A DNA stretch of 38,057 bases. Origin: Saccoglossus kowalevskii. Lineage: Eukaryota; Hemichordata; Enteropneusta; Harrimaniidae. The stretch is from positions 11,900 to 49,956 of the forward strand of contig NW_003151261.1 in assembly GCF_000003605.2 (NCBI RefSeq), read 5' to 3'. Made by a program: the position numbers and the translations under genes. Of this stretch, positions 80 to 38,001 are shown piece by piece. The notes beneath the pieces were generated by a model, which saw only the letters and a list, made by a program, of their open reading frames with translations, was not told the DNA's origin and did not search any database. Each line of letters starts with the position of its first letter. Positions within the stretch are counted from its first letter, which is position 1.

Positions 80-223
80 TGTATGAACTAATTGAGTTAC
101 AAACACTCAAGTCAACTGCTCCAAAGGATATAGAATATTTTGAAGCAAATGAACACCATTATCTGGTTATTGCAAATGCCTTTGGTACAGATGAATCCCA
201 TTCTATAATATATTGGTGGGCTG
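80..223 (+). CDS. Exon 1 in window: EAR repeat
   Basis: Acceptor TTTCAG ends at 79; donor GTAAGT starts at 224. The exon enters and leaves in phase 1. It encodes one EAR repeat, with 'ELQTLKSTAPKDIEYFEA' followed by 'HHYLVIANAF' and a W-W pair near the end. Earlier exons are missing from the window, so this is not the true first exon. Confidence 0.85.
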
Positions 224-3200
224 GTAAGTGATAATTGCTGAATGAAAATGGATCAACCAATAAAACGTGGTATTTGAAGAAGTTGCGTTAATGTACGATG
301 CACAAGAACGTTAATTTCAGTATTTTGTGCATAATATTGTTATACTGTAGAATACTTTTATTTCTGCTTGGAATTTATTTTCTCTATTTTTGCTGAAGTA
401 TGCTTCAGTTAAAATAAAATCCAGTGAATGTACTTTTACCTATTTCACATTAAATTCATCAGTGAAAAACAAATATACAAAAAAGTGAAAATTAATTCCA
501 AGTTTTACAGTAATATGCAGCCTAATGCTGTCTGCACCATGATATCAACACATTTACAACTCTCATATTGTCTCAACTCTCACTTTGCATATTAAATCCT
601 GATTTGGCTTCACCACCTGCAGCTTTTTCAATGTATGATATGACACTGTTGTCGGAGCTTTACAACATTTCACGAGCCTCGACAATTTTTTTTAAATATT
701 TTTCAGGAAGTGGATTTGTGGAATATCAACGTATTGCCACTTTTAATGCTACAGCTATAGAAAGCATTAGAATGCCCAATGGGGAAGTCATAATTGCCAT
801 TGCCAATTCTGAAGTGAGTCAAGTTTAACTTGAAACTGTTTTGTTAGAACATTTTGATGCTGATATCTATTGTCCCAATAGCGATTTAGTAACATAGCAT
901 TTAACCTAATGTTTTTCACTCAACGTCGGAGAATCTAGGTTTACTTGTGTGTGGGTGCATTTCAGCTGACTTGAAAGTGAAAAGTTATTTTCTGATTCTC
1001 TACTCAACATCCAATCTGTAGTCACTAAGTTTTCAGTCAGTATGTTTTAATTGCATGTAAAAAATGGGAATGAGAGTATTGTGAAGTTAGTCTTGAAGGA
1101 AAAGTAAGGTTTTGCTAGTATCGTTTTTGGCTAGATTTAACATTACCAAGTTTTTATATGTCTCGCATTGTACCTTTTTAAAACAAACATCTAATAAGTT
1201 GTTCTTTTTGCAGGATGTTGGTACAGTTTTCTATAATGTAGACCAAAGTGGTATGTTTGTGCCAAGTACTGTGCAAGGATTGGGAACTAATTTTAGTAAT
1301 CCAGAGTTCACAGATCTTCAAGAGTTCACAATTGGAAATTCTTTTTATTTGGCTGTATCTACTATGGGCGTTTTTGAACTTGTATTTGATTCTCAAGTAG
1401 GTGGGTATACTCGGTAGTTCATACTATTATCTGAGATAGTTTACCTTGTGTGTATCATTTAATTGGACTGAAATTCAACGCAACTGTAGAAAGAACTCCC
1501 ATGTGCTTTTGAGTATTGGCGAAATATGAAGTAAAAATAAATACAATTGAGATTTTGAGCTTGTAAGCAAGTCAAATAAATTGCAGCTATTGTAGGTTTG
1601 CTAATCATGTCTGAGCATTGTGTACCAAGTTTCAATGATTGGTTCTGGAAATAATAGTGGAACAGACATGTACTCGTATAAACATGTATGTACGTGCAGG
1701 ATCATACAGACAGGATTGTGCTCCTTGCTGAAAAAGACATTTTTTTTATTCAATGTTCTTACACGTGCCTAGACTAAATAAAATTAAACGTCCTGCATGC
1801 ATTATACATATCTTGGCTGTTCAGATGGCTTTTGGATTCAAAATGGCTGACTGGCAGTCATTTTTTTTAATGAATTTGGTTCTAGGGCCATATCTGACAT
1901 TCTTTGATAATGTTCATAATTTGTATATTCATTATACATAGTGTCGTACATATACAGATGTGTTTAAAATGGCTTACCATAATTATTGAGCTTCTAGATC
2001 GATTTATGACATTTTTATGTTCCAACTATATTACTATAAACAAACTGTATTAAATTTTATAACTAATTTTACACTTTTTGTTGGTATACAATTGATAAAT
2101 AACAGTATTTTTTCTAATATGCTTTTATTTTCAGTTCTGCCATCACCTAAGCCGATATTGACCTGTTTAGCTGATGTCATTGCTAATCTAACAGCCCAAA
2201 TGATGGCAGTAGCACAGTTGCAAGAGAGACTGAATAACAGATTGAGCCTGTCCATGGAGCAAACAGTAGATGTTCCAGTAGTCTTTAATGGTAAAATTTG
2301 ACATTTCTTCAATAGTTGGCTGTCATTCTGAGGATTGTCAGTTACGAGTGTCTGATCCTCTCGCTCTTACTGGGCTGTGGCTATCATTCTAAAATGTTCT
2401 AGCACAAATATTTTACTGGCACGTCCCTAAATTTCATAAATATTGCCAGAGCTAATACTTGTCGTCATAATGAAATCTCTTGGTCAATCTTAACCAGTAA
2501 ATGTGTTTTGAGTATCACCATCAGTTTGTTTCTATGCAAAAATTGGGGGTGGTGGTGTGATTACCAGCTTGCAAAATTTGTTCATTGGTTCCCGGTTTTG
2601 ATGAACTATTGACCCGTATGCAAACAAAATTGCAATGTTTTTACAATGGAGAACATAAATGTGTAAGATAATGGTGCATCTTGAAACTTGGGCGCTATAG
2701 TTAACTTTTTAATTTTTTAAATTTTCATCAGTGGAAAATTGTTTTTTTTTTATTAAAAAATGCATGCTGTAACAAGTGAAATCTTTCTCTAAACTATATT
2801 TTGAAAATTTAGTTTCTAATCATCAGTATATGCATACCAATTCATTGTGTGGACTTCCCAAGATAACACTTTAATACTGCACTGGATATTCAGTGACTTG
2901 TGGGAAAACCAGTGCCACTATAAATATTTGGGCCTGAATGATTTTAAAATTTTTAAACCACTGGCCTGACATATTTAATTTTAAGTGTCTTCTTGAGAAT
3001 TTTCTTGCATCTGACGTGTCATACTTAAATTAAAGTGTTTTTTTTTTTTTCGAGAAGTTCAGAAAAGGGTCAATTGACAATTCAGAGGTTCCAGGAGATG
3101 CTAGTTTTCCAATATATACAATTGGAAGTTATCTCCCATAATGCATTACATATATACACCGTCCCTCGTGTTGAGGGACGGTGATGTATATGAGCAGTAT

Positions 3201-6200
3201 TAAAATGCTCAGTAGTGCAAATTTTGTATTTGCTTAATGACATGCATACTTAATAAATTCTTGAATGAATTTTACTCAAAAGGGCATTTATCCTATTAAT
3301 TGCGTGTTTTTGTGAATTTTGCTAAAACAAAACTTGTATACTGATCATGCAGTTGAAAATATGTAAATTTCTCTACATGGCTGCAGTTACTTCTAGGGAC
3401 TGATAATTGTAATAATTTTATCCATTGCACATTGATGTTTATTTACTAATACATAATTATTTTGCAGTGTCTGTGACGTCACAGAAAAACTTTACAACTG
3501 AAGACCTTGTACTTGATAATGACAACAGATTTGACTTGGATGATTCATTAGAGCCAGTAAATCGTCGTGATGTAAAAAAAAATCTGACAGACATTCTGAA
3601 TGACCTTGATGAATATACCAAGGAATCTAAACAAGTCGTGATGGTATCTAAAGTGCAAGATATTGGAGGTAAACGGCAACAATTTGAAAAATAAAAATAT
3701 TTTCATTCTTGCAATAAATGATGCAACATTTGTGAGGATATTTCTGTATCATTATTGCTGGGAAACTATTGAGCAGCTTTGTTCATTGTTGGAAGGGGAG
3801 GATGGGGTGGGTGAATTGCATGCACTTTTTTTATCATAACTGATAATGAAGTTTCATTCTAGTAACAATTTTGGAAAGTGTTGAATTAGTATGAAATAAT
3901 TTTACATGGTTGTGTATTGACGGCAAATAGTTTTGTTATTGACCACCTGATTTTTAGTCCCCGTTCAGACGTAGTCCGAAAACGGGGACTTGTGTTTTGC
4001 CCTGTGTGCGTCCGTGCGTCCGTGATCACCTGTATCTCGAACATGCATTGACCGATTAAGTTCAAACTTTACACATTATATGGGACATGTGCACATGCAT
4101 TTTTTTCATGATCCGATTAACGATAGCTGAATAGCGGCCATTTTAAGGCCAAAAATGCATCAAAATCGCATTTTTTCACCATTCCGGACCTGGATCTCAG
4201 TTATGCATGGACGGATTTTGTTCAAATTTGGTACATACATTAAACATAATAGGACCTTGATGCACGTCATTTTTTTTTTTTTTTTGGATCGGAATTCAGT
4301 TCTGGATCTGTATCCGAGACATGTCTGGATTGATCAAGTTCAAACTTCACACACATATGGTACATTGTACATCATGTCACAAATAGATGTGTGCATTTGT
4401 TTCATGATCCGCTTAACAATAGCTGAATGATGGCCATTTTAAGGCCGAAAATGCATCAAAATCGCGCATTTTCACAATTCCGGAACCGGTCATGCATGGA
4501 TGGATTTTGTTCAGATTTAGTACAATGTGTTGTACATATACAGGTGCATTTCGGTCATGATCTGCTTTGAATGTATGTCACTCAAATATGAACGGAACGG
4601 GGACCTGTCATTGACAATGACTTGTTTTCTTTTGTCTTGAATTGATGACATCGCCTAAACCTTTGTCAATCCTTCTTTTCAGGTCGCAAGACATTTAATG
4701 AATCTGTTGAAGTTGTAGACACACTTAATGTGGCTGATCTCTACATTGAAAATGGATTAATTAGTGGTGTTGATGTCGTTAAAATAAACAACACTGCAGT
4801 ATGGCGAAATGCTGATCAAACAATTACTGGCAATACAACATTTTATAACAATGTCAGCATCAACTCTAATATAACTTTATATGGACTGTTAAACAATGTT
4901 GACTTTCCTGGTGAGTAAACAAGAGCATGTGTGCAAGTAAGATAAACTATATACACTAAAAGACAGTGTCTGAAACTGATATGTTACCACAACATGGCCA
5001 GATAAAATATAACTAGGTCTCTCGAAATCAGCATTCCTTGTTACTGTCAAATGACTAATTTCCGCTGGGTTTAAATGTCGCCGATTTACCATTTGAGGCA
5101 TATTCAGTAGGTTTTAAATTAACGGTTTTGTTATTTAGATAATGTGTTCTATGCTAAATTTCACATTCACTGGGTTTTAATTTGGCACATTTTTCCAGTC
5201 AGCGAAATAAGGAAAATTAAAGCCCAGTGAATAATTAACCCCTTTACAGTACTGTGCAGTTCGAAATCAAAACTGGTACATGGAGCATCATGATTAATTC
5301 TTGAAAACTACCAGCCAGATTGTTTATGATGTCTGATGCATCTTAAATTTCACAAAGTAATAATATCAATGCTACACATCTGTAATTTTGCTCATTCATA
5401 ATTGGGCATATTTTCAAATTGAAAAATTAACTTGAAAATGGCATTTTTTACCAACTAAATGGCAAAAACTTAATTTGCTCTAATACAAAACTAAAATTTG
5501 AAGTTGGCCACCAAGATGGAGTGCCACCCCAAAACAACTCCTTTATCTTTTGGCGAACTTTGAACCTGTTATGTACATTGTATAAGAAAAATCCCACCCA
5601 CAAGAAGTGGGTCAAAAAATACAACATGCATTACAAATGATCTGGAAAATTATTTTGAGACTCCTAATTTCCACATAAACAGAACGGTGCTTTGAAACTC
5701 TTCAATTTGAGATTTTACCAGTAAAGGCGTATACGTGGCTGATATATTATAGGATTAGTGGTCTGTCACCACTTCAGAGAATGTTTTTGGACGATTGCAA
5801 CATAATTTAATTGTAACTACCGACTGGCTAAAGATTTAGTGAAACCATACGAAATAGAAGACTTGTAAATTTATAAATATAGTAATTAAATGCAGGGAAA
5901 TTTGTTCTTGCATGTATCCATGTCAAATTTAATTGAGCAGTCTGCTCAGAAATTACCTAACTTATCCAAATTATAACTGTTGCTTGTTACTATGTTGGAA
6001 TTGCAAGTTAAATTGTATCGCTTTTTGGCGTTTCCAGGAAATGTTCTATTAAATCATGGAGATCAGAACATTACTGGTAATATAACTTTCGAGTCTGACG
6101 TCAATTTCGAAAGTAAGATTACCATATACAACCTGAATGGCATCAATTTATCCAGTGAGCTCGTGACTACATTTGGTGAACAAGTCATCCATGGCAACAA

Positions 6201-9200
6201 GACTATAGAAAGCGATATTACAGTCAGCGGAAATGTGTTGCTTCCAAATGGAACAAGTATAAATGGGGTAAGAATATTGTAAAAAAATGCATCCCGGTAA
6301 GTTGAATAGTTTAATAGCATCCGAGAGGAGTGTTCAGGTTGTTTCCTCTCCAGTGGGGAGAGGGTGGGGCATACCTATGCCGCAAAAACATTACAAGATC
6401 GAATTTGTCTACATTGCGATAAGCATGAGGAACATTTACTTGTAGTTTGTTTTGTTACTCTCGTACAATTCTCCCAAAAGAAATCAAAACTAATGAAAAA
6501 TTTCAATTTATAATGAAAATAAGACAGAACTTCAATTAAGCATGTTGCACAATTTATCTTCATGGCATTCCAACATTGCATAAACGTGCAATTGTTAAAT
6601 TCTTACCAACTTGTTATATTTTATTTTATGTATTAATATCTCTATTGCTTTTTACTGAAAGAAATTTTTCTGAAGATGTAATAAACTATAATTTTTATGT
6701 TCATGTCTCAATTTTATATTTTTCACAGGTTGATCCATCAGAATTTGTAAAGACTGCTGTAAGCCTAGCGGAGGATGGACAAATAAACGGGAAAATAAAT
6801 TTTTTCAGAGACTTGGATATTCAAAATGATTTACTTGTAACTGGTTTGATCAACAATGTGGATATAGGAGATCTGGCTGCAGAAGTGATTTATAAACACA
6901 AGGAATACCAAACTGTGACGGGTATGTTGCTATTGCTCCAGTCACAAGTTTTTATTTTTAGTTCCACTGTCATTGTAGATGACAGAGCGGAGCTGTTTGG
7001 ATAGATGATTGTCTGCCATTTTCTTGAAAACTACCAGCTGAACTGTTTTGATACTTAGTCTGTAGATATACATTTATCGGGTGGACCTCTATAAGATTTG
7101 TTCATTTTTGACGATATCTTCAATTCTTTACTTTTGGCAAATATTTTTGTCAATTTTTGTAAAAAAGTAATGCTATTTTTGACTTCCTCTTGAACACTCC
7201 CAACATGATTGATTTAATATTTGAGATGTACATTATTTGTGTGAACAATTTGTTCTTTACTTGGCTACCAAAATGTTCTTGTAGGACACCAAAGCTACAT
7301 GTATTTCAATCATCGGGTCACTTGTTTGATCAAAGTTTTTCAGGCCATTTTGTGACTTGAAAATTACTTGCTTTTGTGTTGTAACCATTGGTGGCTGTTC
7401 AGGGATTAGATTACTTGAACATAATTTTTTGCTGTTCATTTACTATTTTACAATGCACATTTTCCTAAACCTCAGAACTACACATTTTTTTTTTATGTCC
7501 TGTATTTAAAATTTGTGTATACTTAGCAGTCAGACAGGATTGATCATGTCCCTAACCACTGCATCTTGCCCTGGTATGAGTAAACGCAGTCGTAAAGGCA
7601 CCATGCCCAGGTTTATATGGGAGAAATAAAATCCAACACCTCATTAGTAATAGATCCCAAATAAAACAACTATGAATTATCATTAATTACAGCTCGAAAA
7701 GATTTCCTGAATAATGTTTATGTGAAAAATGATATTACTGGAAATGGTACCATAAATGGTATAGACATCTCTGAAGACCTTGTATATTTGAACACAGATC
7801 AGGATATTCTCGGCAAAGTTACTATATCTGGTGATGGAAACTTTACAAGTATTACATGTGATTTGGTTAATGGTGTGGATTTGTCTCTAGAGGCGATATT
7901 AGTGTCTGGTGCACAAACAATGTCAGGTGTGTGTTTTTTTTACATCTTCCAAATATCAAGCATGTTTAATGGACTTGGACAGGAAATTGTTTATGAACTT
8001 AGAAGACATTTATGTTATTTACCATCATTCTAGTATAGATACTTCGCCAAACTTGAAGCAAGCATTATGACATTAGTTATCTTGGCCATGTGATTTTAAC
8101 AGGGGATGACTATTTCTCGGGATTCTTACAAATGTATACCAAATTGCCCAAAGTACAACATGAATAAAGAGCTCAACAAACGGAACACTTTTGACTTTGA
8201 GGTAAATGCACTGGGTCAAAATATCATTGGGAGATTTGGAAGGAAAATATACTTGTTCTGTAAAACACAATACAGAAGCTAATAAGTGTAAAATAAGAAT
8301 TATCTAGTAGGTACATTTATTTGGACAGAAAAGTCAGGTGATTTATTTAAATCAGTTTTAGATAGTTGGAGAATAAATGATGGTGTTACTTAAGCTAAAT
8401 CAAACATAAGATATAAATAGTATTATCAATTCACTAACGCGTATTTTAGTTAGCACTGGCGAGTCCTGTTTTATGGCTATATAAAGATAGAATAAAATAA
8501 ACTACACTAAGATACAGTAAAGTTAATCAACTACACAGAATGCTAAAAAAAGCTAAATATTACAAACTCGCAAAAGATCACAATGAACTTGTATGGTACA
8601 ATAGACTGGCCAATATTGTTAAGAGGTAAAAAAATTATATTAAGTCATAATTATCCTGGAAAGAATATTTCTAATTTTGGTAGTTGCTCACATCTCATTT
8701 GTATAATATTAAAAATAACTCCCATGTTAATACACTCTCATTTATTTGATACAATGGTAATGCCAGTTTGTTTATATGGCAGTGAAGTTTGGGAGCCTAT
8801 AACATTAACAAACTGGGTCAAAATGGTATCTTGAAGTCATTATTAAATGAGAGCAGGGATTGAGAAAATGCTCGGGGGGGGGGGAGGATTTGTCATAAAA
8901 TTACTACCGGTAATGTATGAGGAGAGTTGGGTAAATGCCCAATAGTTAAATAGTATATGCAAGTCAGTTTACCAATTGAACAAAGAGTTACAAAAACATT
9001 TCACAAACTACGTGAATATGCAAAATCTGTGATGAAAAGCATTACATAATGTAATGCATCACCGGTAATGCTAAAATTTATTCGACAAAATTAGCTTTCC
9101 ATAGTTTGATAAACTTAATGCTGAATGAAAGTTCATATATTTAAGTGCTTTAGACACTTGTTCTTTTGCCAAATAAGTATATTCTATTTTGAAACTAGTT

Positions 9201-12200
9201 GATAGTTCCGTTTAGTGACCATATTGCTATATAAACTAGTGTTAATAAATTAATTATATGCTTCTCAAGCAGATGTCTAAACCAATCGCATTAAAACTTT
9301 GTTAGTCCCTGTTCGGACGAAGTCCGAAAACGGGGACTTATAATTCGGTCTCTGTGCGTCCGTCCAGAGTCGTATCTCAGAATCCCTTGGATCGATTCCG
9401 TTCATTTTTTGCATGTGCCTAGTACTTTATGTGGGACATATGCACATGCAGTGGTTTAGCGATTGGATTCAAAATGGCTGACTGGCAGGCATCTTGTTTT
9501 TGTTTTTTTATGCGGTATCTTGGGCGTGCTCTGTTAGTTTTCATTCAAATTTGGCACATACATGTACTTTATACAGGTTAGGATGCATGTTCATGACAAT
9601 TTGTTTCAAAATCTGGTCAAGGATGGCAGATTGACAGCCATCTCACTTTTTGGCCTTACTACTATATTTCCACAATTTATGTACCATTTTCATTCGTATT
9701 TGGCACGTACATCATACATATCAGTGTTTCATAATCAGATCAAAGATGGCTGAATAATGGCCGTTTTTATTTTGGCCATATTACTATGACACGAAACGCG
9801 TGTTTTGATGTAAATAAACAATCTGTTGTATACGCCACTTGGAACTCAAGTTTCAAGGACACACTCGCGAAAACCCCTCCGCTTTAATATGATGAGCACA
9901 AAGAGAACTTAATGGGGACTGTGTCATTTTCAATGACTTGTTTATCATGCCTCTTGATTTGTAATCATATCAAGATGATTTAATCGTTGCCAATTGGTGC
10001 AGAAAACTGGGTTGCATATTAACGGGTTCCGTTAAAACATTAGACATTGTGGAACCTGGTGTTTTATTTTTAAAGTCTGGTAGCCATTTTGTTTTAATGA
10101 ATGCTTTTCCAGGGCCAAAAAATCATTATTCAAGTTACTAATCACATGTCATAAATATGCACTGATACTTGATATCAGAGTTTTATTCAAAAGTAATCTT
10201 TAGTTACTTCTGTGCAATGTCTTCAAAACTATTAAAATATAATTCTTTTTTTCTTTCAGGTGCAAAGAGTTTCAAAAATGGATTCACTGTTTCTGGTGAC
10301 ATTATCATGTCTCCCCTTGCTACAGTTGATCAGGTTGATATTGACGTGTTCAACTCAACAGTCATGAAGTTGACAGAACCAGCGTCTTTAGAAGGGATAA
10401 AAACATTCAAAAACAACGTCACAGGTGAATAAGAGTTATCAAAAATGCTCAACAATTCTGAAGCAATGTCATTGTCACTTTCGCAGTATTTTTTCAAATT
10501 TGCCCAACTTGTAAAAAGAATTTGCACTTGCTGAAAATTCCCAACCTAAGCCATTGTGTCAACACAGGTGGCGCTATTCAGCACAGACCTGTGTCTTATG
10601 ACGCATAACTAGCCTCTGAAGGCTAAATATCCACCCGCTACCATTTTTCTCAGAGTTTCTGCCGCGGAACTATATAAAAGTATTTTTCTTTTGAACACAT
10701 CCTCCCCCGATTTTTAGCAAGATTTAATCTTTAATGAGTTGATCAATTAAAACTACACACAACACTCATCAGAATATCTTATTTTATTAACATTAAAATG
10801 CATGTAAATTGGGAGGTCAAAGGTCTAATTTTTCTCAATATTGCATTGACACGCAGATTGCCGCAAACCAATCGAATAGTGCCACCTGTGTTGACACAAA
10901 GTGGAAATAGTTCCGACCACTTTTCTCATAGTTCCATGCGCGGTACGTGTCAGATCGGTTGGTTTGCGGCAATCTGCGTGTCAATGAACCTAAGCACTAG
11001 GCCAAGTTCAACATTCAGAAATGGTAGTCACATATACAAATTTTTCATGATCATTCACACCATTTTTGGTGTGTCCATTGATCCTATGGCGATAGATAAT
11101 TTGATTAATTAACTGCCTTTGTCTCTCAGTTAATGGTTCTGTAGTGCTTTCTGACATTTTGAATGGTCTGAATATTAGCTTTGCAATGGATGATGTCTTG
11201 ACTAAGTCAACTGATCAGATAATCAATGTACCTGTTGATTTAATTGGAGACTTTGTTTTCATGGGTAATTTGAATACAAGTAGATTTGATAACCTGCACA
11301 TGGATGACTTCATTCTACTGGAAGCACCAGGTCAAATTGAAGGTAATTATACTCAAATTATGCATTTACGGTAAGTATATGTATGTATTCTCGTACATGT
11401 TAAATTACTCCAGAGGTAAATGTAATTGATAGCGTCTGATAGTAACCGAATGGAATATATGGTGGAGGAATATTTTTATCAAAAGTAGAACAGAGTGAAA
11501 GAATTATTACTGAAATAATGAATATATCGTTGCATGCCATTAGTGTGAGATGGCAATCACTTTGTATATGCTGTATGGCATTTCTTGATTTGCTAGGTTT
11601 TGTGTAATAAACTTTCTGAGCAACTGAAAAATGCATGATCTTGCCAACATAAATTTTCTTCCACCATACAAGTCCTAGAAATGTTCCCTTCTCACCCTCG
11701 GGCGGGGGTGTATAAAAAAAATACTGAAGTTGCATAATTAAATTGATTTTCAAGGATTTATAACATTTAAGTCTTCATTTGTTCTCAGGTTTCAAAAACT
11801 TTACAGATCATGTTAACATTGTGGGTGATTTAGATGTGGACAGTGAAGTCAAGATTAATGGTATTGACTTATCTGCATTAGACAATAGTGTAAGTTCACG
11901 CCTTCTTGCAACGAGTTTCAATGAATATTCATTTTGGTGGTCATGGTAACCATGTCTACATTGCAGTGTTTGCATTGTCGGTAAAAGTCAGATACTCTTA
12001 AAGGCCCAATTCACTTGCCTCCCCCCTGCCCCCCTGGGCAAGTGTGAATTGGAGGTGTGGCTATGCAAATAAGTGTTAATCACTTGCATAGCCTATGAAG
12101 CATCCTTTTTCAGCAGTTCAACATCACGTTACTTTGATTGACAGCAGTTAATTATTCAAGATTAGTAGCCAGTCCCTTTTCCCGGTTCGTGTTTTTGACT

Positions 12201-15200
12201 TTTATCTGCCAAAATCTCAACTAGTACACTATATATTGTCATAAATACTACAGTCACTGCTGTGATATTCATTGTCACATCCATCCACTTTTGCACAACA
12301 TAATCGACCTGTAAAAACGCATTTTTACCGCAGCTTGGCTGGAGCAGTTTACTACAGTGTGACAAGCAAGGAAATGATCCCTATTGTTTAGAAGTGTTTT
12401 TATAGTATACCTGGGCCTTTAAACAAGATGATAAACATTGGCCAGAAATTTGCCAGCATCTTATTGCATATTAGGTCAACAAATAAACTCTGTCGTGAAT
12501 GGTGACTCTTTAATGGCTGTCACTATAAGACATTTGAAATTTGATTGGTAACTACAAAAAAAATCTGGAAGTGAAACTACATTGATCTGTCAGGCATGTG
12601 TTGGGTTTGGAGCACTGCAGAGGGTACAACTCGTGTGACCTTGTCGGGTTAATTGCTTAATATATCACTGCTATGAGTGGGTCAGAATCACTAATTTTTT
12701 GATACTAAGGAGCATTTTTTTATATTGCCTTGTACAATGTGTTTATCGTGATGGTCTTGTTACCAGGTTGTGAAGAAAGAAGGAAATCAAACTATTCTCG
12801 GAAACATTGAGTTCTCTGATTCAATTAGTGTTGATGAATCAATTGAAGCTTTCAGTGTAAATGGCTTTGATATACTGCAGGACTTGGTCAGATTAGATGA
12901 CCAACAAACAGTAGCAGGTAAGAACTACCCTATAAATGTGTATACATTCAAAGATTTAATTTGTACAGTGTTGTGTATAAAATAAATGTTTGGTGAAATG
13001 GCTATCTACAAAAGTTTTAAGTTTGAGGACAGCGGTCCTGCTGAAAGTAATTTGTAGTGTCGTTTACTGATGCTAGTCTGGTGTGCTCGCTGTTAAAATT
13101 ACCAGGGGATTAGGAGGCAAGTTTGAGATCACCTGTAATAGGCATTCAATAATTTTATTACCGGTAATGGTAATCTTGTGTATACGAAACAATATATATT
13201 GTCTAACTTGGTATCATGTATTTGTATCTGATCTATATACTGGTTGTTTGTATACATTTTCTAGTTGATCCTTGTGCAGAAATTATTGAATTTATTGCAT
13301 CCTTGGAAAGTTTCCATTGGTTAACAGCAATGAAATGTTTGTGATACAATACACAATACTAAAGCTTTTCCTGGATAAGGTTCTCGGTGAAGTAAATGCA
13401 ATGAAGAATTCTTTGATTTTCTGTCTCCTTTTTTTTACTCAAAGGTCAGAAAACATTGCGTTCTAACCCTGTGTTCATTATGGGTAATCTGAATGTGACT
13501 GAAACCTATGTAGACACTATAAACGATGTAAATATCACTCTACTAAATCAAGAAGCTGTTCTAGTTGATGGAAGTCACATCATAGAGGGAAGCAAAGTCT
13601 TTATTGGCACTTTAGAAGGCAAGTAAATTGTTTCTTCATATCAATAGTTAGAGCTGGTTTTTAATTTAAGGGAACTGAAAGAAGCAATAGCTTTAAATAT
13701 CAATCTTCTGATTTATATTTAATATTTCATTTCCTGTGTAACTACAATCACACTTGGCATGTATGCTATATACATATGTTGTACCTTAAAATCATGTGCG
13801 AATGGAAAGATGGCCATTTTTTTTGGGGGGGTGCCATCTATCAAAATCTAGTTTGGTCAAGCGAATCTTGAACATTAGCGAGTCTTTCTATGCTGCATTT
13901 CCAACTTTTAAACTTTTATTTCTGTGCAGTCACTGGATTCCTAGATGTAAATGGCCTTGTAGATGGTGTGAATACAACTGAATTTACCGAGAATGTGGTC
14001 ATGCTCAGTGGTATGCAAACTATATATGGTAAGTATGCTATACATCTTTTGGCTTAAAGGAAAAGTCAAGGCTAACATAAAACGCCCAGATAAAAAAGCT
14101 CTGCAAATGTAAAAACTTGCAATTTAGTTTTTTTATATCGCTTTTCATTCTCTAGATATTCAACTTTTCATCAGTATTATGTAGTCCACCATCTTGATTC
14201 TTTAGAACATCACATATCCACTGTTGCCGAACATGAATATAAAATGGTTGGAAATATTAGAACTGAAAATATTCATCTTTGTGTTTCTACCAAATCCTTA
14301 ATTGTTCTTGTATTGTTTACAATTTATCTTTGCGAGTAGGTTTTACAAGTGATTAATAACCTGTTGACCACAGAAAGGGGGACAAGTGTCATTAACTAAA
14401 AAATCAAAAAATTGTTTTTTTGGCAATATCTTTACTGTTTGTGTATTTGTAACATTCTAATTTAAGTAATATGCACACCTAAAATTTGAACGAATTACTA
14501 ATACTAAATCAGTATTTCATGCGTTGTATAGAATTTTCTCAGTGTTTCACACAGTGGATGTCAATTCTTTTGCTGAAGAACCAAGACGGCAAACTACATA
14601 ATACTGATAAAAAGTTGAATATCTAGAGAATGAAGTTATACAAAAACTGTAAATTGCATTCTTCTACATTAGTGGGAGCATTGGTTGCCTTGACTTGGTG
14701 TTTAATATTGCTATTATGGTTATGTACTGACCTATGTGTATGCATTAGGAACTGTATTTTGGATATATCTGCCAATCATTCAAACTTCACACGTAATTCT
14801 AGGGATACATAGGAATGTCCAAATGGCAGCCATTTAATTGTTAAAATTACATCAGAATTGAACTTTTCTGCCATTCTGGAACCAGATCAGCATCATGAAT
14901 GAATTTTGTTAAATACACATTGCGGGTTTGTGAAGCATGTCATTGTTTTTCATCAAAATTAAGCATTTCTACTTCAACAAAAAATTGTTGCATTTATTCT
15001 AACATTGCTTAGGTGAGAAGAGTTTTATGACAGACGTGTATATGATCAATGTGACGGTTAATGGCACTGTAAATGGTATCAATCTGGAAGAGTTTTGTGT
15101 TAGTGTAGTGGACTTGTCTACTGATGATGTCGTCAATGGCGAAAAAACATTCGAGTGAGTATTCACAGTACGGGTTTACATACTGAAAGACAATATTCTT

Positions 15201-18200
15201 GTTGCTTAAAAAAAAAAATTTTAACATCTGTGGCCATTGTTTCATTTCCTGCAGTGAAGTTGTAGTGAATGGCGACTTGATGCTTGGAGGTTACGTCAAT
15301 AGCTTAGACCTATCAGAATCTTCTGGGCTGTACTTATCTAAGACAATACCACAGCACATTGATGGGTATAAGGAGTTCTCACAGAATATAACCTTGAGTA
15401 AGTGGATAATACAAGTCTTGAGTATTTTTTTTTTATTTTTGGAATTAGGCTTTGAGATGCTGATTACTCTATTACAGTACAAATTTTGTACCAAGATAGT
15501 TTTAAATAAAACTTACCGTAGTTGTCAGAATATAAACTCCTCAAGGGAGGGGGACGACAAATTAATGAAAAATTAGAGGGGCTTATAAATGGATAAAAGT
15601 TAAAACTTCTTCTGAGCGATAATTTATTCATAAACAAATAGTCGCGTGTACGATACTAGTCTTCATCAACTAGCAACGTCCAAATTAACTAGAGGACAGG
15701 CAGTTACCCCGGGATCACTCTTGGGTACGTTTACTAAGTGGAACAGCATTTGACCCTGCGTTTCACGTGAATATTGGGGTAATGAAATTATCGGTATATT
15801 CTAAATGAAGTTTCAAATAATCGGGTAAATTACTTGTTGTAAAATGCTGTAAATTTGGAGGGGGGCTTATATAACTATGCTACATACTTCACGGTAATCT
15901 CGTGGTACACATTTTTCCTTCTGGAATTGTTTTGTACACTGTACAAACATTTTCTGGGTGCTAGATGTATATTTGTTATTGCACACTATAACAGACTGTC
16001 CAGTGATTGCCTTGTCAATAATAAAAGGTGCACCCTAATCTTTATAAAACATGTACTATTAACTTTTGTCAGATGATTTGATGATAGACTCTGGTTTTCT
16101 GCTGGATGGTGTTGATATCAACGATATGGCATTAATTGATCAGAATGCAGTGTTTTCTGTTGATGTTTATTTTAACAATACACTGACCATCAACGCTGAT
16201 ATTATAATTGAAGATGGAATCAATGGAGTGGATATAGTTGAGGTAATAAGATGACTAGTTGTAACTTTTGAGGGAAAACTTTATTGATTACCAGTACACA
16301 TTGGTTGTAGCAGCAGAACAAAATGTTACCTCTGTTTATTCACTTAAGTCTGTAATTTGTTTCCAACTTAACTTTTTGTATACATTGCTCAAAAAACTTG
16401 CTTGTAAGTCATCCCTTTATGTCAGTTATTTTTTGTTCCTGAATAGTAGTTATCAACCTTTGTCAAGACTTTGTTACAGCAAGTGAACTGTCTCTGTGAC
16501 ACTAAGTCTATGTTGTAAGCATACAAGTTTATATAACTGATAATAATCGGAGCAATATGTTTATAAATTCACTTGTTAGAAATTAAATTACAAAAATATG
16601 TTTGACATTTATTAAGACTGTTATAATACAAAACAGGCCATTCAGTAACGAGTCTTGGTAGATTTAACATAGTTTTATGATCACATCATAGTACAATTTA
16701 TTTTCTAATGAGACCTATTTATCTGTTGACAGAGCAGATTGTCTATCGTTAATATTTATTTTTTAATCTGTCAGCTGGTTGTCGTACTTGCTACAAAATG
16801 TGCTGTGAATGGTTTTCCCTCATATTTGTTAAATTTGTGACAATACTTAAATACAAAATTTTTGACTTTTTGAAAACATCTACCCCAATTGCTTGGACAA
16901 TTGATGTAGTTTAGATAACTTTAGTTTCCTAATTTTAGTGTAGTCTTAACATGATCATTAAGTATCCCCAAAATTTCTCATTGCTGTGTATAAGGACTTT
17001 CATTGCAGATTTTTTTTGTTTTTCCCCAGCTTGACAACACAGCTGTTAAATTGAATACTGGAGAACAGCTGATTTATGATATTAAGTCATTTGGTGATGT
17101 TACAATTGACGGTGATTTGGTGGTAAATGGAACCATTAATGCAGTTGATGTTACTGGTATGTGAACTTATTTTGGAGTTTAGACTTGCCATCAGATTGTT
17201 TATTGCATTGAGAGTTTATTTTTATTTGCCATCATTGGCACAGAACTACGTTATGTATTGATCTGAGATCAGATGGAGTTGGGTGTGTAAATCTTCTCGA
17301 AAGAATCTTGTTCTAAAACTTTTTTTGTGCTCATGTATACAGTATTTATAGCATTTACTATCTGGGAACACTTTATAATTTACTTTTAAATTAAGACTTT
17401 CAACTGATTATTTATGTTCTCATTGTATTCGCCAGATCTGGCAGCTCAAGCAGTTTCCAAGACAGCTGGTGATATTTATGTCCATGCTAACACAAATTTC
17501 TCTGAACCAGTGCAAATTAATGGTGATGCTTTGTTCATGCATGATATTAATGGCGTTGATTTGCATGCACTTTATGAAGATGCTGTTAACTTACACGATG
17601 ACCAAGTAAGAATTAGCTGGTATTAATCTGTACATTGATTGCTGATATCAATAACTGTTCAAGATTAAGGCAGAATCTCGGGGCCAAGAACCCCGAATTT
17701 TTATTGAATTTTACTCCTTCCCTAGGGGAAAGGGAACGGTCATTAAAGAAATAAACTATGATAAAATCACTAAAATGCTGACAAAATTTGAAAAACAATA
17801 GTTGTAGAGAAAAGTTCTGGTGAAAAATTGTTTGTCAGATAAGCGACCTTTTTCTGACTTAAAAAATGTTAGGTTGTCTGTAGGAGTTTGCCTAATTGTG
17901 AGGAATTTCACTACAAGCAACTGTGAACATGTTTATGCCTTGCATGAAATGTTAACCATATATTTGTTTGTAACTTTGTAAGGACATTGATGGAGCCAAG
18001 ATTTTAGTTCACTCGTCTGGTATTTATATGAACAATGTAGAGGTTACTGGTGATGTCAATGGTGATTTCAATGCACATGATGTACATGTTGGAAACTTTG
18101 TGAAAGACTTGGTCATGAAATCTACAGACCAAGATATTTACAGCTCGGTGGTATTCAACAGAAGTCTGGTTCTTAACAGCAACCTTATTGTTAATGGTAA

Positions 18201-21200
18201 GATTGGTTTTATGTGAACCCGGTGTGTATATATGCACATGTTTTAAAGGGGCACCTTCCAGTTAAGCCTAATCTCACAACAAATTTACTTTCTGGGTTAA
18301 AATAACAATAGATAACAAAAGATAGAACATTGTAAACATAAACAATAGTGTCCCATGATTCTTTGGGGCAATCCATGGGATTGAGCCGTTCCTCTTTAAG
18401 TATGTACATTTACTTGGTTATGGCTAGTGTGTTAACTGCTCATCCAACATTACTTTTTGGACATGCCTTAATTGGCTGATTTTGTTCAGTCGTAGTAATT
18501 TACCTAATACATTTGTACATCAACTTGTTTCATTNNNNNNNNNNNNNNNNNNNNNNNNNNNNNNNNNNNNNNNNNNNNNNNNNNGACCAGGGGCACCTTG
18601 TCTCAATTCAACATTTGGAGCATGGCAATTTTTCCTGCCATGCCTCGGCAGATCCATTTAAAATTCATATTGACATTACACATGGTGAGGTTACATTTAT
18701 TTAGTCCTAAATCACAATCAAACTTCAAACATGCATCATACATAATATTTTACACATCAATTTGTTTCACAATCTGATTTAAAATGGCCGACTGGTGGCC
18801 ATTTTGTTGTAATTAATGCTGTTCCAGAGCAATGTTTCTCAATATGGACAAGTACTTGTTTGACGATTAGATGCAAGATGTCAATCATTTTATTTTTTGC
18901 AAAATCATCATAATCAAGCGTCGTCTACTTGACTGAATCAACCCTAGACAGTGAAGTATTAATTAAATCAAATCATGTTTGATGGTTTGATACAAACTAT
19001 TCAACTGGTTGCCACACTGCTGGTTTTATTTGTACAGATCCACGCAATGACAGTTCTAATATGCAACAGTCAGTCAATAAAAATTCCCCTCGTATTAAAT
19101 ATCCAATTTGTGTAATTATCCAATTTTTGACTCCCATGTGCGAAGCACATAATGGGAGTCTTTGCAGTTAGTGTGTCTGCATGTATGCATGTCAGACTGT
19201 TCCACTACTATCTCAAGAACCACTCATTGAATTTTGATGAAAATTGATACATGGATGCTCTGAACATATGCGCAGATTTGATTAGTTTTTGGTAATAATC
19301 CGTGGATACTAATTACCTAATTTGCATAATGATTAGTCAATTTTGGGTTTTTCCACTGATATCTCAAGTACTAATCATCACATTTCAATGAAACTTGGTA
19401 CATAGATGTCATATGACACTGCACAGACCTGATAGTTTTTATGGTAATATCAGTACATACAATTACCTAATGTGCATAATTAATTAATTTTCAGCTTTTG
19501 ATACAAGTAGTGAGCATTGAATTTCAATGAAACTTGGTACTATGCAGAGATTGTTTTGGATAAATAATTGTGCATATTAATTACCTAATTTGCATAATTA
19601 ATTTTCAGCTTTTTTACTGATATCTAAAATACTAATCATCACATTTCAATGAATCTAGAATTATGCAGAGACCCAATTAGTTTTCGGTAAATATTTGTGC
19701 ATATTAATCACCTAATTTGCATAATTAACCAATTTCCAACTTTCACACTGATATCTCGGGTACTAATCATCACATATCAATGAATGTTTGTACATGGATG
19801 CTGCAGGACAATAGACAGACCTCGATAATTGTTGGTTAAAATCTGTACATATTAATTACCTAATTTGCATAATTAACCAATTTTAAGCTTTCACACTGAT
19901 ATCTAAAGTACTAATTATTCCATTTCAATGAAACTTAGTACAAAGATGCTCTAGGACAATGTACAAACCTAAATAGTTTGGGGTAAAAATCTGTTCATAT
20001 TAATTCCCTAATTAGCGTAATAATTGATAATTTTTTGGTTCTAATCTCATTTCAATTAAACTTGGTACATAGATTTTCTGTTACATTGCGCAAACCTCAT
20101 TAGTTTTACACTAAAATCTGTTTATATTAATTTTCTGATTTGCATAATTAGTTTTCAGCCAAGTAATTTCGAATTATATTTAATGTGTTACAATACTCTC
20201 AGCACATGGGAGTTCTTTCTAAGCTTTCTTTGATTAGCCTTTCTGTTGCCCTCTGGAACTACTTTAATAGATTTCACTGAAACTTAATATACAGACGTGG
20301 TCTGGGATTATTTGTATTTTGCAATATGAATAACGAATTTTCTGCTGTTCCACTGATGTACCCTCAGCACACAGGATTGTGTAGGCTGTTAAGGTTGGTT
20401 TAGCAGCACTGGTCATTTAAATGTATTTGGTTTTTTTAAAGTGCACATTTGCAACCCAAAATGTGCATGGTAGAAATTCAAAAACAGATTTTTCATTTGT
20501 CAGATGAAAACTGGTAATTGAATGCGTTTATCCATACGTATATGCCTCTATCTTGAACACTAGTGTTAAAATTTCATTCATATATCTTGGGATACATGTG
20601 CTACATTAGTTTGTGATCAGATTTGAGATGGCCATTCGGTGGCAATTTTTCAAAATTAAAAATGCATTTAATTTAAACATTTATTTGAACCAGATCTTCC
20701 CATTGATTCTCTCAATCGGAGCAGCATGCATAGCAACCATTTATTTGTTTTAGTGAATGCTTTTGCATAGCCAAATTTAACATGTCTGCACCAATCGTAT
20801 TCATACATCACGTTTCATGATCGGGTCTTCATCCACAATAGCTGACTGGTTTCAGTTTGGTTTGCTGTTGCACAACTGGGACTCTAGTGTTGATGAGTTG
20901 TTTGGCAAGATTTTTAATTTCAGATATTCACTCTAGTTTATGTTTCAATGCAATGTACATACATGTAGTACTACAAAATGAAACTCTATACACACAAAGT
21001 GAAAAGTAGGGCAATTTTACAGATGAGTGGGCGCTGTAGTTTTTAAATTGGTATCAGATTTTGAAAGTCTCACAAATTGAATTTTTACAAACAACTTCTA
21101 GGACTGAACAAATTTGTGGCAAACATTGCATGCAGAGCCGAAGTAGAATTATTCCCACTCTTAGTAGATATTCAGATCAATTTAATAAAATACTGGACTC

Positions 21201-24200
21201 GTATCAGTAAATTACCAGACAATAATATCACAAAACAAGCATACCTTGAACAAAAGAAATCCAATTTACAATGGTACTCTTAAATACAAAAAATGATGAA
21301 CAGAATGATTTGTTAACAAAACATATACAGAAAATTGGCAAAGTTGTCAAACAAAAATACATAAATTTCTGGAGAAAAAATATAACTGAAAAAACAAAGC
21401 TGAGAACTTATGAAAAATTCAAAGACTTTTATAATTTTGAAAAATACTTAGATGTGCTAAATTTGAAACAAAGAATTTCAATGACAAAATTTCGAACTAG
21501 TAATCACAATTTAGCAATAGAAAAAGGGAGACGTATGCAACCAAAAATACCTACTGAAAATAGAATTTGTAAACACAGAATGAAATAGAAGATGAACTGC
21601 ACTTTGTTATGAAATGTCCACAATATAAAGTAATACGCCAACAAATCATACAAAACATTATATTTCCACAAGAAACCCAGGATGATCTCCAGAAATTTAA
21701 TTTCTTGATGACTTCAAAAGATGATGTAATAATAAAAAAGATTGGCAACTATATTCATTATGCATTTCAATCAAGAAATAAAAATGCCATTTGATATGTA
21801 ACACTTGCTTTATCTTTTTTTTAACAACTAACTTTCTTTTTGTAGTAGTAGTTATCACAACTAATCTTTATTGCTATTAACTGATAGAAACATTGTATTT
21901 CTAAGGATGCAATAAAGTTATTATTATTATTGAGTCGATACAACCACATTGCTATTGACTGCTCGCAATCAATCAGCTCACCACTTCAAAAATTTCACTA
22001 AAATCAAACTCTCAAATAGGTTGGTTTATCTGGTATCATAGCCAAATAATTTACAAAATAGGATATTACATTTTTGTGTTATCTACTTGACATTGTTCCT
22101 CAAAACGTATACTTAAACTGTTTTAATGTAAAATATTCTATTTATTAGGTTTTATTGACTTTGTTGATCCTTCGGAAGACCTTGTTTTAGTGCATTCTAA
22201 TGGTGTCGTGACAGGTGACAACACTTTTTATGCTAACATCACAATAGATGAAGACTTAGTGGTGGTAGGATTTGTTGATGGAGTTAATGTCACCCATCTT
22301 AACAACAAATATGCAAGTTTGTCTCGACCTCAGGAAATCACTGGAGCAATCACTTTTCAAAACAACGTCACTGTTGTAGGTAAGTAACAAACTCATTGTA
22401 TATAGATTAGTAGTATAGCTTACTTCATTAGTAATGTTTGAGCTTAAGACTTATTTTGACCATAGACGTCTCATTCCTATCTTATTTTTAGTCAGCCTTG
22501 TGGATTGACCTGTGTCCGTCTGAACCTGTATCTTGGACATGCCAGGACCAATTACATTTAAACTTCATACATGTATCATGCATAATATTATACATATGCA
22601 CATCAATTTGTTTCGCCATCTGATTCGAGATATCTGAATGACGGCCGTTTTTGTGCTGAAAAATCATCAAAATCAAGTTTCTCTGCTGTTTACAGAGATT
22701 TTGTTTGAACTTAGTATTTTCATTAGACACAGGACCTTGATGCAAATAATTTTATTTTTCAGACAAGTTTTAAAATGGCTGACTGTTTTAATGTATGCAG
22801 TTTTAGAGCTATATATGAGATTCTTCGTTTGATTATGTTAAATTTTATATTCATTATACATCATGTCATAGATATACACATATATTCAAAATGGCCAAAG
22901 GCTGGCCATGTCTCTCAATGTGGACAAGTACTCATTTGAGAATTGGATACAGAATGACAATCTCAACCTAAAATTTAATTTGAATTTTAATGTTGAAAAA
23001 TCATCAGCTTCTGGATCCATACCTGACATGTTTATGCTGCAACTAGATTACCATAAACTATATCTTAACTTTAATGACTGCCATACATACTTTGTTTATT
23101 TCATTTGGCCTTATCTAACTTGTTTGCATAAATTCATAATTCCTACAGATGACATTAATATTAATGGTACACTAAATGGAGTTGATATTGACGACATAGT
23201 TTTAATAAATGGTGACCAAACTATCGTGGGAAACAAGACATTCAGTGATGGTGTTGTGATTGTTGGTGATCTAGTTACTGATGAGATCAATGGACTAAAC
23301 TTACAATGGCTACATGATAACATGGTTAGACAATTTTGTGATCACAATGTTACGGGTGAAAAGGTAATTTTTACTAAATCAACAGTTCTCGTGATTTTAA
23401 ATTCCATTGTTGGAGGGGGAAAAAAAGTCCCAAGTGATGTTAACATTTGCTAAAAATGCAAAGGCTCATGGGTAGACGCTTGTTTGTAAACAGTGACACG
23501 CTATGGCCATCTGATTTGTGCGCAGGTGACGACTTTGCCGCTTTAATACAAATGATATAAATGTAACCCTTTAACGGCATGTACCCTGTGGTGACGGTTG
23601 TACTTACAACTTGCATGTCGCTATCGTTTAAATTTCACATGAATAATAATTTTATAGGTATTCCAAAATGATGTGTACATTATGAATGATATGGTGGTAC
23701 TGGGTTTGATAAATGGAGTCATTGATATACCAGAATTACACAACGATGGTTTGAAAGTATTTCAGGACAGTACACGGATGTTGACACATGTAAATGAAAC
23801 TATACGTGGCCAATGTGAGCTGGTATTCAATTTATCCCAAGCAACTGCTGGTAAGTAACAATAAATCTGGTACCCCCACCCCCACCACCTCTCTCCACCA
23901 TGTGTATTCTTGCACCATACTGCTACCAACATGGAGATCGAAAGTTAACTTGATTTTGTTTCTTTGCTCCTGAAGAGAACAAAGGCAGGAGACTTGTGTT
24001 GTAGTGATGTATGAAAGTTATAATTTGTAACTATAAACCACTGAATGAATTGGTGTGCAATTTGGTACAAAGCAACATGTTGGTACAAATCTGTGAATAA
24101 TTTGCATACTAATTAGCTTCTCTTTAACAGGTTGTTATAAAATACCCTACTAGTTTGTTCAAATGTATTCAAACTTCTTGTGATGTTGAATATCTAACGC

Positions 24201-27200
24201 TACTTTGAATTAAATTTGCATATTAACTGAATAAATCAAAATCTCTAAAGCAGTATTAACATTTTACCATTTAATCTTTTCACCAACTTTTTACAAAACA
24301 TTTAAAAAAAGTCCTCTTTATAGTCTGCACTTTCTGCACAAGATTGCAACAAAAATGGCTCTAAAATTAGGGTTCGTTTTCAGAAATATTAAAGAATACA
24401 AATTTGAGTGAGGTATGGTAAAGATTATCACAAAAAACTCAATTTACAGGGAAAAATTCTCTAGTATTGTGTAGTTTTTGCATCTTGTAATTCCACCACT
24501 AATCACGCACGTGTGCATACTTGAAGCTTGGACATGCCTAGGCCAATTTTACATAGGTAATTACTTTCTTCTGCAATTATATGAAATTGGTGCTTTTCCT
24601 TGGGATGTCTGGTGGTGATCTCTTAAGAGATCACTTTGAAAACTTGCCAAGAGGGACTGTTTATTTTGAATTGAGGGTCTTCCCTTGTAGACATCAGTTT
24701 TGGGTGGGGGTTTATCATCTAAACAGGGCTTTGTGGTGTTTTGAGGTTACAAGCTGAGCATGGCCTAAAGCCTGTACTTAACTATAAATCTTTATTTTTG
24801 TGCAGGGCAAGGTATGAGTTTCAGTCACTTTGAAGACTTCCAGGATTTATATACTATCAGTGCCGCACAGTTCAACAGCGTTCAGTACGACAGTGGTGTT
24901 GTCTTGTTTCTAACAGAGTCTAACTTTCCATTTGTTCCACGATGCACAGAAGGACATTTATACATGTGCCCTCAAGAGGACACTATCTGCTGGGAAATTC
25001 AGAACCAAAAATTCCCATCTACTTCAAGTGTCAAGGGTTATAATATTGGAGAAAGAACTTTTGTTGTTCTCACCCACAGTGAAGAGATGATTAGTAATAC
25101 TTGTGTAATTAAACAAAATGACATGGTGACTAGAGTGCTGGACTTTGATGATGCTTCCTTTGACCAGAATCTAACTACTAGTGGTTCTGTTGACTCGGTT
25201 ATGTTTTCAATTGATGGAGAGATTTACTTAGTAGTTGCCAATGGTCACAACAACTCGTTAGGTAAGATTTATTCCTCTTATGTATATTTAAAGCAAGCCA
25301 GTTCACTGAACTTCAATATTTTTTAACTCGCAAGTGTTGATCAGGCTTGTACATGTACACTGAAGCTCCTAACATGACAATGTTACAGCATGGTCATGTT
25401 AGGAGCTTAGAGCCCTATTACCATTCAGAGTTCCATCCCATCCCACCTCTTCCCTGGCGCATATTTGTTTATAAGAGGAAGTAGTTCAATACAATTTTTA
25501 TTTAAAACTAGTTTTCTACTATGACTAATATTAACCGTTGATATTTTGAGTCGTCATGTTTGGCAGAAATATTTGTTGAATTTTAAAAACTTCACACGTC
25601 ATTTGCCGAAAGCTAACTTTGTTTTAAGATCTGACATTTGTGTATCGTACAAGTTTATTGTGACATGATGCATATCATTGGCAATTGTGAGTCTATTAAA
25701 CCAAATGAAAACTGTACATGCAGTATACTTTGGTTGTCCCCCTGTAGTTCAGTTTGCAGCTTTACTTTGTTTTTTTTTACCAGTAATCTCCAACAGCGAC
25801 TCGGATGTATTCAAGTACAACGAGGGCATCAATGCCTTTGAGGAATATCAACAACTTCCAACATATGGAGTGAAAGCTGTAACTTTCATTGACATCAATG
25901 GAGTTTACTTCTTGGCATTTGCTAATTCATACGATAGTGAGCAAGCAACTGAGGAAGTTGATGCCACTGTGCATGCATGGAATCCTTCTAAAAAACGGGT
26001 AGGCGACGAGTCTTAAATAATCTTGACACTTTTGTTGACTATTGGCGAAACGATTTTAGTATTGAAAAATTTGCTATAATATTAATATACTGTTAAATAA
26101 TTTTAGCTGGAATTAATTTTCGCTGAAAAGACTTTTTTGGTGTTTTATATTTAATTTTTTTTTTTTGACAAGTTTGAATGTAAAATATAAGGGTTTTTTT
26201 TAATTTTCACTAATTCATTCCCTCAGCAAAAATTAATTTCAAGCAAAAAGTGTTTTACAGTACTAATTGATACTGTTTTTACCTCGGCTGTCAACTTGAA
26301 AGCTTGATTGCTTTGATACGTGTATCCTGGGTAGATTGATTGATTTATTTGATTTGATTTATTGCGTGATATCTTAAATTCTCAAATTGTTATTTTTGTT
26401 AAAAAGTGATAATTTTGACTTTAAAAATTCTGATTGCTTCAATATTATACATACAAGTACCTCAGGTGGTCCTCTCAAATTTGTTCATTTTCTAATATCT
26501 TCAATTCTCTAATTGAAATGCAAGTTGCTATCTCGGCTGGGAGACTGCAAGTTTTAAATAAGGTTAGGCTCAAAGCTTTGCATGTTTAGATGTGCATTTT
26601 TTATTGACCTTGCAGAAGCGCTTCACTGCCAGTGTGCAGTTTGTTTGAATGATGCATTGTGTAGCCTTTTACTGAATAGACCAACAATTGCTTATGGTGT
26701 AACAGTATTTGCGTTGTACATTCTCAGATTATATTCATATCAACGGTGGGAGGGCTTAGTTTGGCTTGAAAAATGCATTTAAAAACCAAACAGTTGTCAT
26801 GGTTACTGTGGCGGTGTTTTAAAATAGCTTTGTAACTTTTCTTTAGTTTGAAGCAGCTGAATCTATTGTAGATGGATATGTGACTGTTGCTGCCAGCGAT
26901 GTCATTAATTTCAGCATAGATGATGAGGTATACGTTGCTTATGCAAGTAAAAACATCCATAGTGGTAATGGTGGTGATATCAATATCTTTAAATATGAAT
27001 CCACTGGGTTCAAACACCAACAACGAATAGAACTAACTAATATTGTTGATTTAGAATTCTTTGAGGTGTCCGGTAAGTTTGTATTTATCATAGTCTTCAT
27101 TCTTGTTGTTTTTTTAATAGAAACTATCTGGTTGTATTTTTTAGAAACTAGTAATTACACAAAAGATACTGCATTTGGTTCCTTTTTACCTTACAATAAA

Positions 27201-37803: not shown

Positions 37804-38001
37804 CTATAACAGCAATTGAAATATTAATTTAATATAACTTCATTATCTACTCAAAAGTAACGAAAAATTGAGTAATTCATTTCTGATCAAAAATGTTTGA
37901 ATACTAACAAAAAATTGAGAACAATGGTTAGTATATGTAGGCGATCAGTCTAAAATTGCCATGACAACCAAAACCAGTTCTTTACATTAACTCAACTGTT
38001 T

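Follow-up and report, generated by a model that had tools for sequence, protein, structure and literature searches.

A tandem array of about 26 phage-neck-like modules in an EAR protein gene of Saccoglossus kowalevskii, a candidate triple beta-helix rod

Which fold is adopted by a 43-residue repeat that follows itself about 26 times in a predicted EAR protein of the hemichordate Saccoglossus kowalevskii, and where does such an array come from? The gene was studied in a window of 38,057 nucleotides (NCBI RefSeq assembly GCF_000003605.2, contig NW_003151261.1, positions 11,900 to 49,956, forward strand), and positions within the gene are counted from the first letter of this window. An initial annotation, made from the letters, had described the repeat as apparently undescribed, found no named domain for it and suggested a beta-solenoid or stacked beta structure. 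On the evidence of sequence comparison the product is probably a homotrimeric rod of triple beta-helix type with about 26 modules and predicted EAR propellers at both ends; the trimerisation is what we infer.

The array occupies the 19 exons 6 to 24 (4683..23850, forward strand, as the whole gene), and our splice model gave coordinates identical to those of the initial annotation. It consists of 25 clear copies and a partial copy at each end, the first starting in exon 5 and the degenerate last one lying in exon 24, in agreement with the earlier count of about 26. The spacing from copy to copy is 38-48 residues, with a mean of 42.3. Scored with a profile built from the remaining 24 copies, every one of the 25 exceeded all 40 shuffles of its own residues (10.0-50.2 bits for the copies, 13.8 bits for the best of all shuffles), thus the repeat is beyond chance. 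On both sides of the array EPTP was matched above the Pfam cut-off of 21: with 42.1 bits in the N-terminal region (80..1400; exons 80-223, 707-813 and 1214-1400) and with 55.1 bits in the C-terminal region (24806..27478; exons 24806-25261, 25784-25998, 26847-27072 and 27263-27478). The description as a regular repeat within an EAR protein was thereby confirmed. The EPTP regions are candidate seven-bladed propellers, the N side being truncated by the window start and the 3' end being provisional.

The alignment of the copies has 43 consensus positions, of which 18-41 make up four hexads (turn-turn-core-x-core-x; consensus GDQTIT GNKTFS NNVTIN GDLVVN). The other positions, about 19 (consensus INGVDI..L..dVV.L), comprise a turn, I-N-G-V-D-I, and a brief stretch whose hydrophobic residues can be read as having helix-like spacing. 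Hydrophobic residues account for 94% of hexad position 5 and 57% of position 3 in the 25 copies (4%, 32%, 96% and 96% of position 3 in hexads 1 to 4); Gly, Asn, Asp or Ser occupy positions 1 and 2 in 71% and 68%. Each copy thus has a run of four hexads in which two core residues, separated by one, would face inward, the pattern of triple-stranded beta-helices, and the short strands and Gly turns of the initial annotation fit these hexads with their Gly/Asn turns. The conclusion on the hexads relies on this aligned test; a Fourier test of the unaligned array gave a weak period-6 signal (3.1 at 6 versus 4.6 at 5.5), perhaps because the linkers break the phase. The 1145-residue array contains 37 N-glycosylation sequons, compared to a mean of 16 in shuffles, none of 2000 reaching 37, and four Cys residues. 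Both values fit a secreted beta rod.

The mean pairwise identity among the copies is just 25%. Together with the poor monomer models described below, this low identity would suit an elastic linker, rich in coil, that joins the EAR domains, a chain without fixed fold in which conservation stems from duplication alone. However, core and turn positions are conserved while the rest drifts, which is the behaviour of a kept fold, and the copies match a folded phage neck; an elastic linker is thus very unlikely.

This match was obtained by comparing a profile of the 25 copies with 177,635 PDB sequences. Of the 17 entries matched at E<=10, ten have E<=0.0012. The top seven rows are the receptor-binding (baseplate) protein of TP901-1 or chimeras thereof, with E-values of 3e-7 to 5e-7 over residues 33-62. 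Entries 5e7f and 5e7t, 'Major structural protein 1', matched at 2e-5 and are presumably a protein of the related phage Tuc2009; entry 9efk, labelled 'orf22' alone, matched at 0.0012. A literature search on the entries 9efk and 5e7f revealed nothing relevant among the matches listed. The remaining seven matches are mixed, at E 0.21 or worse. A profile of 11 copies is sufficient for the match (8e-7), and its reversed form reached 0.9 at best. In the TP901-1 protein residues 31-39 are a linker and residues 40-63 a beta-prism with a six-residue repeating motif, in which three chains are interlaced (PMC3893620). In the register of the PDB match, identities to this neck (BppL) amount to 221 over the 25 copies, whereas shuffled necks have 57 on average (standard deviation 17) and none of 5000 reached 221; the copy consensus is identical to the neck at 15 of 30 positions.

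Among the Pfam families, PF18338 (BppL_N, phage lower baseplate protein) was matched by the whole array of 1146 residues with 45.3 bits, a sum over copies since only two stretches match the model alone, against a curated cut-off of 25.8. The reversed array and one shuffled array had no match to it. The model covers 25 positions, and neither single copies nor the whole array matched a Pfam repeat model spanning the full 43-residue unit. Exon-by-exon Pfam scans were weak (E-values: BppL_N 0.042; GXGXG 0.029, in exon 6), and the match to the family required the whole array. Searches with a single sequence in PDB, NCBIfam and PHROGs used the first 672 of the 1146 residues, corresponding to 15 of the 25 copies. 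In this part NCBIfam had no model for the repeat unit, and PHROGs yielded the tail protein family phrog_7911 at 0.0017. Single copies matched 20 PHROGs families at E<=1, the best at 2.5e-4 and three of them matching two of the 25 copies. A named relative thus exists, both in Pfam and among the solved phage baseplate proteins, and the initial annotation was not supported in this respect. The term 'undescribed' remains appropriate for the tandem arrangement, not for the module. The position typical of PF18338, at the N-terminus of a phage receptor-binding protein with a C-terminal head, is not found here, as the array lies between EAR regions in an intron-containing gene.

In the beta-solenoid or stacked beta structure of the initial annotation, a single chain would coil on itself and the likeness to the phage would be convergent. 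Regular length, hydrophobic alternation and the Gly/Asn turns agree with such a fold. Hexads occur also in monomeric left-handed beta-helices, and weak Pfam matches were obtained for GXGXG, which we take to be a beta-helix domain (exon 6, above), and for B_solenoid_ydck (one copy, E 0.26). After every four hexads, however, about 19 non-hexad residues break in, and the entries matched in PDB at better than 0.01, namely the TP901-1 protein, 5e7f/5e7t and 9efk, include no known solenoid. A solenoid is therefore unlikely; by the match to the phage neck, an interlaced three-chain triple beta-helix is the indicated fold.

In the proposed trimeric rod, each module would consist of a linker, about 19 residues long and helix-like in its spacing, and a prism of four hexads, and three identical chains would be wound about one axis. 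In every prism, strands from all three chains would interlace, with their core residues (I, F, V/I, L/V) directed inward and the turns and probable N-glycans facing outward. Upstream of the array, exon 4 (2135..2290) reads by eye as a likely coiled coil, with the heptad residues I-L-M-V-Q-L-L at a spacing of 3-4; exon 5 (3468..3668) encodes an acidic segment, a second short heptad-like stretch, also seen by eye, and the beginning of the partial first copy. The register of the chains may be set at the coiled coil of exon 4 and by the linker segments, followed by interlacing prism by prism. The product would be a stiff rod outside the cell, with a length of perhaps about 0.1 micrometre in a rough estimate from strand spacing. 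It would keep the EAR propellers apart at its two ends and may act as a bivalent trimeric spacer or as an adhesive bridge. If true, the 26-module array would present a new kind of extracellular rod and EAR proteins would gain a trimeric, bivalent form.

Several observations weigh against this rod. Position 3 of hexads 1 and 2 is mostly Q and K instead of a hydrophobic residue, although the TP901-1 neck likewise has E and K at position 3 of its first two hexads. Just four of the 25 single copies matched PF18338 at E<=1 (best 2.7e-5), only two stretches of the array reached this threshold on their own, and copy 17 is identical to the phage neck at just 2 of 30 positions. The single sequence of 672 residues had no significant match in PDB; all three matches, at 0.41-0.46, were the TP901-1 protein. 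Simple hexad motifs can converge, thus common descent from a phage is not established. AlphaFold2 monomer models were poor. Exon 7 (6038..6267), which spans most of copy 2, the whole of copy 3 and the start of copy 4, reached a predicted local distance difference test score (pLDDT) of 74.8 and a predicted template modelling score (pTM) of 0.32; DSSP returned nothing for this model and Foldseek found no matches with it. Exon 23 (23149..23363), with the end of copy 23, the whole copy 24 and the first part of copy 25, had a pLDDT of 59 and a pTM of 0.28, with one short helix and a bridge. These monomer models neither support nor refute a trimeric rod, and they are too poor to decide on a single-chain solenoid. 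For the TP901-1 receptor-binding protein, AlphaFold2 is reported to have given trimers on BppU that closely resemble the X-ray structure (PMC10747895). Secretion signal, anchor and partners were not seen, the 5' end of the gene lying beyond the window.

The array is not confined to this gene. Genome-wide searches covered the 572-Mb genome, in which a consensus double repeat matched 21 places at E<=0.1: 14 on the contig of the window, six on contig C3233 and one on contig C4665 (E 0.094). On C3233 a second gene (218759-233860; L053, L054) has EAR-like exons followed by a repeat array. The repeat was matched at E<=0.05, in some cases weakly, in 20 open frames that share a strand between 220901 and about 233860; upstream, Pfam EPTP was matched at 218759, and more EAR-like exons were recognised by eye. 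An EAR profile built in this analysis had no match on C3233, though Pfam EPTP matches there. A profile of 15 fragments from the second gene matched 9efk first in PDB (6.6e-5), and the TP901-1 protein at 0.001-0.002. The repeat was absent from all eight EAR loci inspected, each of about 3 kb, two of which contain N and one of which belongs to the gene on C3233 but lies at too great a distance from the repeats there. The genome list of EPTP matches is incomplete, because at its threshold the EAR exons of the window itself go unlisted. EAR genes seem to be numerous in the genome; long EAR open frames of 363-379 residues were seen elsewhere at L004, L005, L009 and L011. The same survey included a mitochondrial contig (L056, C4830), on which COX1 lies on the strand opposite to open frames reading as ND1 and COX2 and requires TGA to be read as Trp. 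Among solved structures, the six best matches of this COX1 (747-760 bits) include the bovine enzyme (1occ) and outscore a plant entry (689 bits) and a yeast entry (604 bits); together with the EAR genes, this indicates an animal genome.

The introns bear on the origin of the array. Five of the 18 introns within aligned copies lie in the codon of Gly24 in phase 1 (P 1.5e-5 under uniform placement), and the intron between exons 5 and 6 appears to share this position. Such recurrence suggests that parts of the array probably grew in a eukaryote by duplication of intron-containing units. Capture of a fibre gene from a virus or phage, or integration of a virus fragment, would explain a module type known from phages, and BppL_N has been reported in polinton-like viruses of protists (PMC12220804). 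Eukaryotic viruses thus carry the module, without a viral source of the present gene being shown by this. Against a gene that is not of the animal stand the 19 repeat exons with introns, some recurring at Gly24 phase 1, the EAR domains flanking the array and the second such gene, so that we consider a captured gene extremely unlikely. The repeat module alone may derive from a virus long ago. A fuller scenario is put forward tentatively, as possible rather than probable: an animal lineage acquired a fibre module of virus or phage type and multiplied it with exons and introns, giving rise to a family of genes for long homotrimeric fibres whose two ends carry EAR propellers. Whether animals borrowed a viral fibre module or arrived independently at the same hexad rod is the question raised by the array.

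Three real copies matched four phage records, with a best E of 0.05. A consensus query, which is biased toward the motif, matched 13 of 50,697 phage records, including one strong match to the baseplate protein of Leuconostoc phage Ln-7. Among 72,556 plasmid records this query had one match, to a hypothetical protein encoded on a plasmid of Borrelia hermsii (E 2e-6). Inspection of 24 stretches taken from bacterial genomes and viral contigs revealed no regularly spaced array with a period of about 43 residues.

For the gene model, 28 open frames were chosen by motif or EAR likeness, donors and acceptors were scored, and one exon from each was chained. The predicted chain of 28 exons is consistent in all phases and encodes 1766 residues without a stop. 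The 5' end is cut by the window start, and exon 28 ends in a weak donor. Most splice sites rank among the top-scoring, with two exceptions set by hand: the weak acceptor of exon 21 (17983..18196) at 17983, in phase and under the score threshold, and the donor of exon 14 (13445..13618) at 13618, which is GC, not GT. The following intron, 13618-13930, is of the GC-AG type with the donor AAG|GCAAGT and is otherwise in phase. The long intron that separates exons 21 and 22 contains, at 19178-20163, a tandem array with spacings of mostly 148-151 bp. Open frames at 21250-21794 resemble by eye the end of a long interspersed nuclear element (LINE) reverse transcriptase. On the minus strand, open frames at 31970-37823 look by eye like a gene of the mesothelin/stereocilin type, with a weak Pfam match (Stereocilin, E 0.23). 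A short repeated stretch at 35926-36700, with open frames like LMLVYYHSASLAHVSLLS, has the appearance of a minisatellite.

Among known systems, tailspike-like proteins of Streptomyces phages share a VKLTGDQTITGVKTF-like motif, with nine stretches in Wentworth gp31 and seven in Gibson gp30 in the parts examined. In contrast to the array, most of these matches stop after the second hexad and are irregularly spaced; these proteins were found with the consensus query and are thus selected for likeness. EAR/EPTP proteins include LGI1-4, TSPEAR and ADGRV1. They resemble the present protein in the EPTP regions detected on both sides of the array; to our knowledge, none of them has an array of this kind. 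The neck of TP901-1 BppL (PF18338, PDB 2f0c/4hem) is a close counterpart, with a 30-residue ungapped match to its linker and four-hexad beta-prism. In the phage protein the linker is preceded by a helix (PMC3893620), and a predicted coiled coil lies upstream of the array here. The phage chain has one neck followed by a receptor-binding head and belongs to a virion, whereas about 26 modules in tandem are placed between EAR regions in an intron-rich gene. Among the papers listed in searches of the open-licence literature, none was on this repeat in an animal protein by title or abstract. The module type is known, and no 26-copy shaft made of it in an EAR protein was met among these papers. Virus fibres are known to have shafts of the triple beta-helix type, and the one animal example encountered was the short stalk of MYRF, which sets a precedent in animals for a triple beta-helix like that of phages (PMC8326128; see also PMC3742443). 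An S74/ICA model was not among the Pfam matches (E<=1) of the array and of the N- and C-terminal parts, the gene ends lying outside these parts. The MYRF stalk resembles the proposed rod as a triple beta-helix of the phage tailspike type, with hexapeptide repeats and two core residues one apart, and differs from it in being short, only partly intertwined and followed by the self-cleaving ICA domain of a transcription factor.

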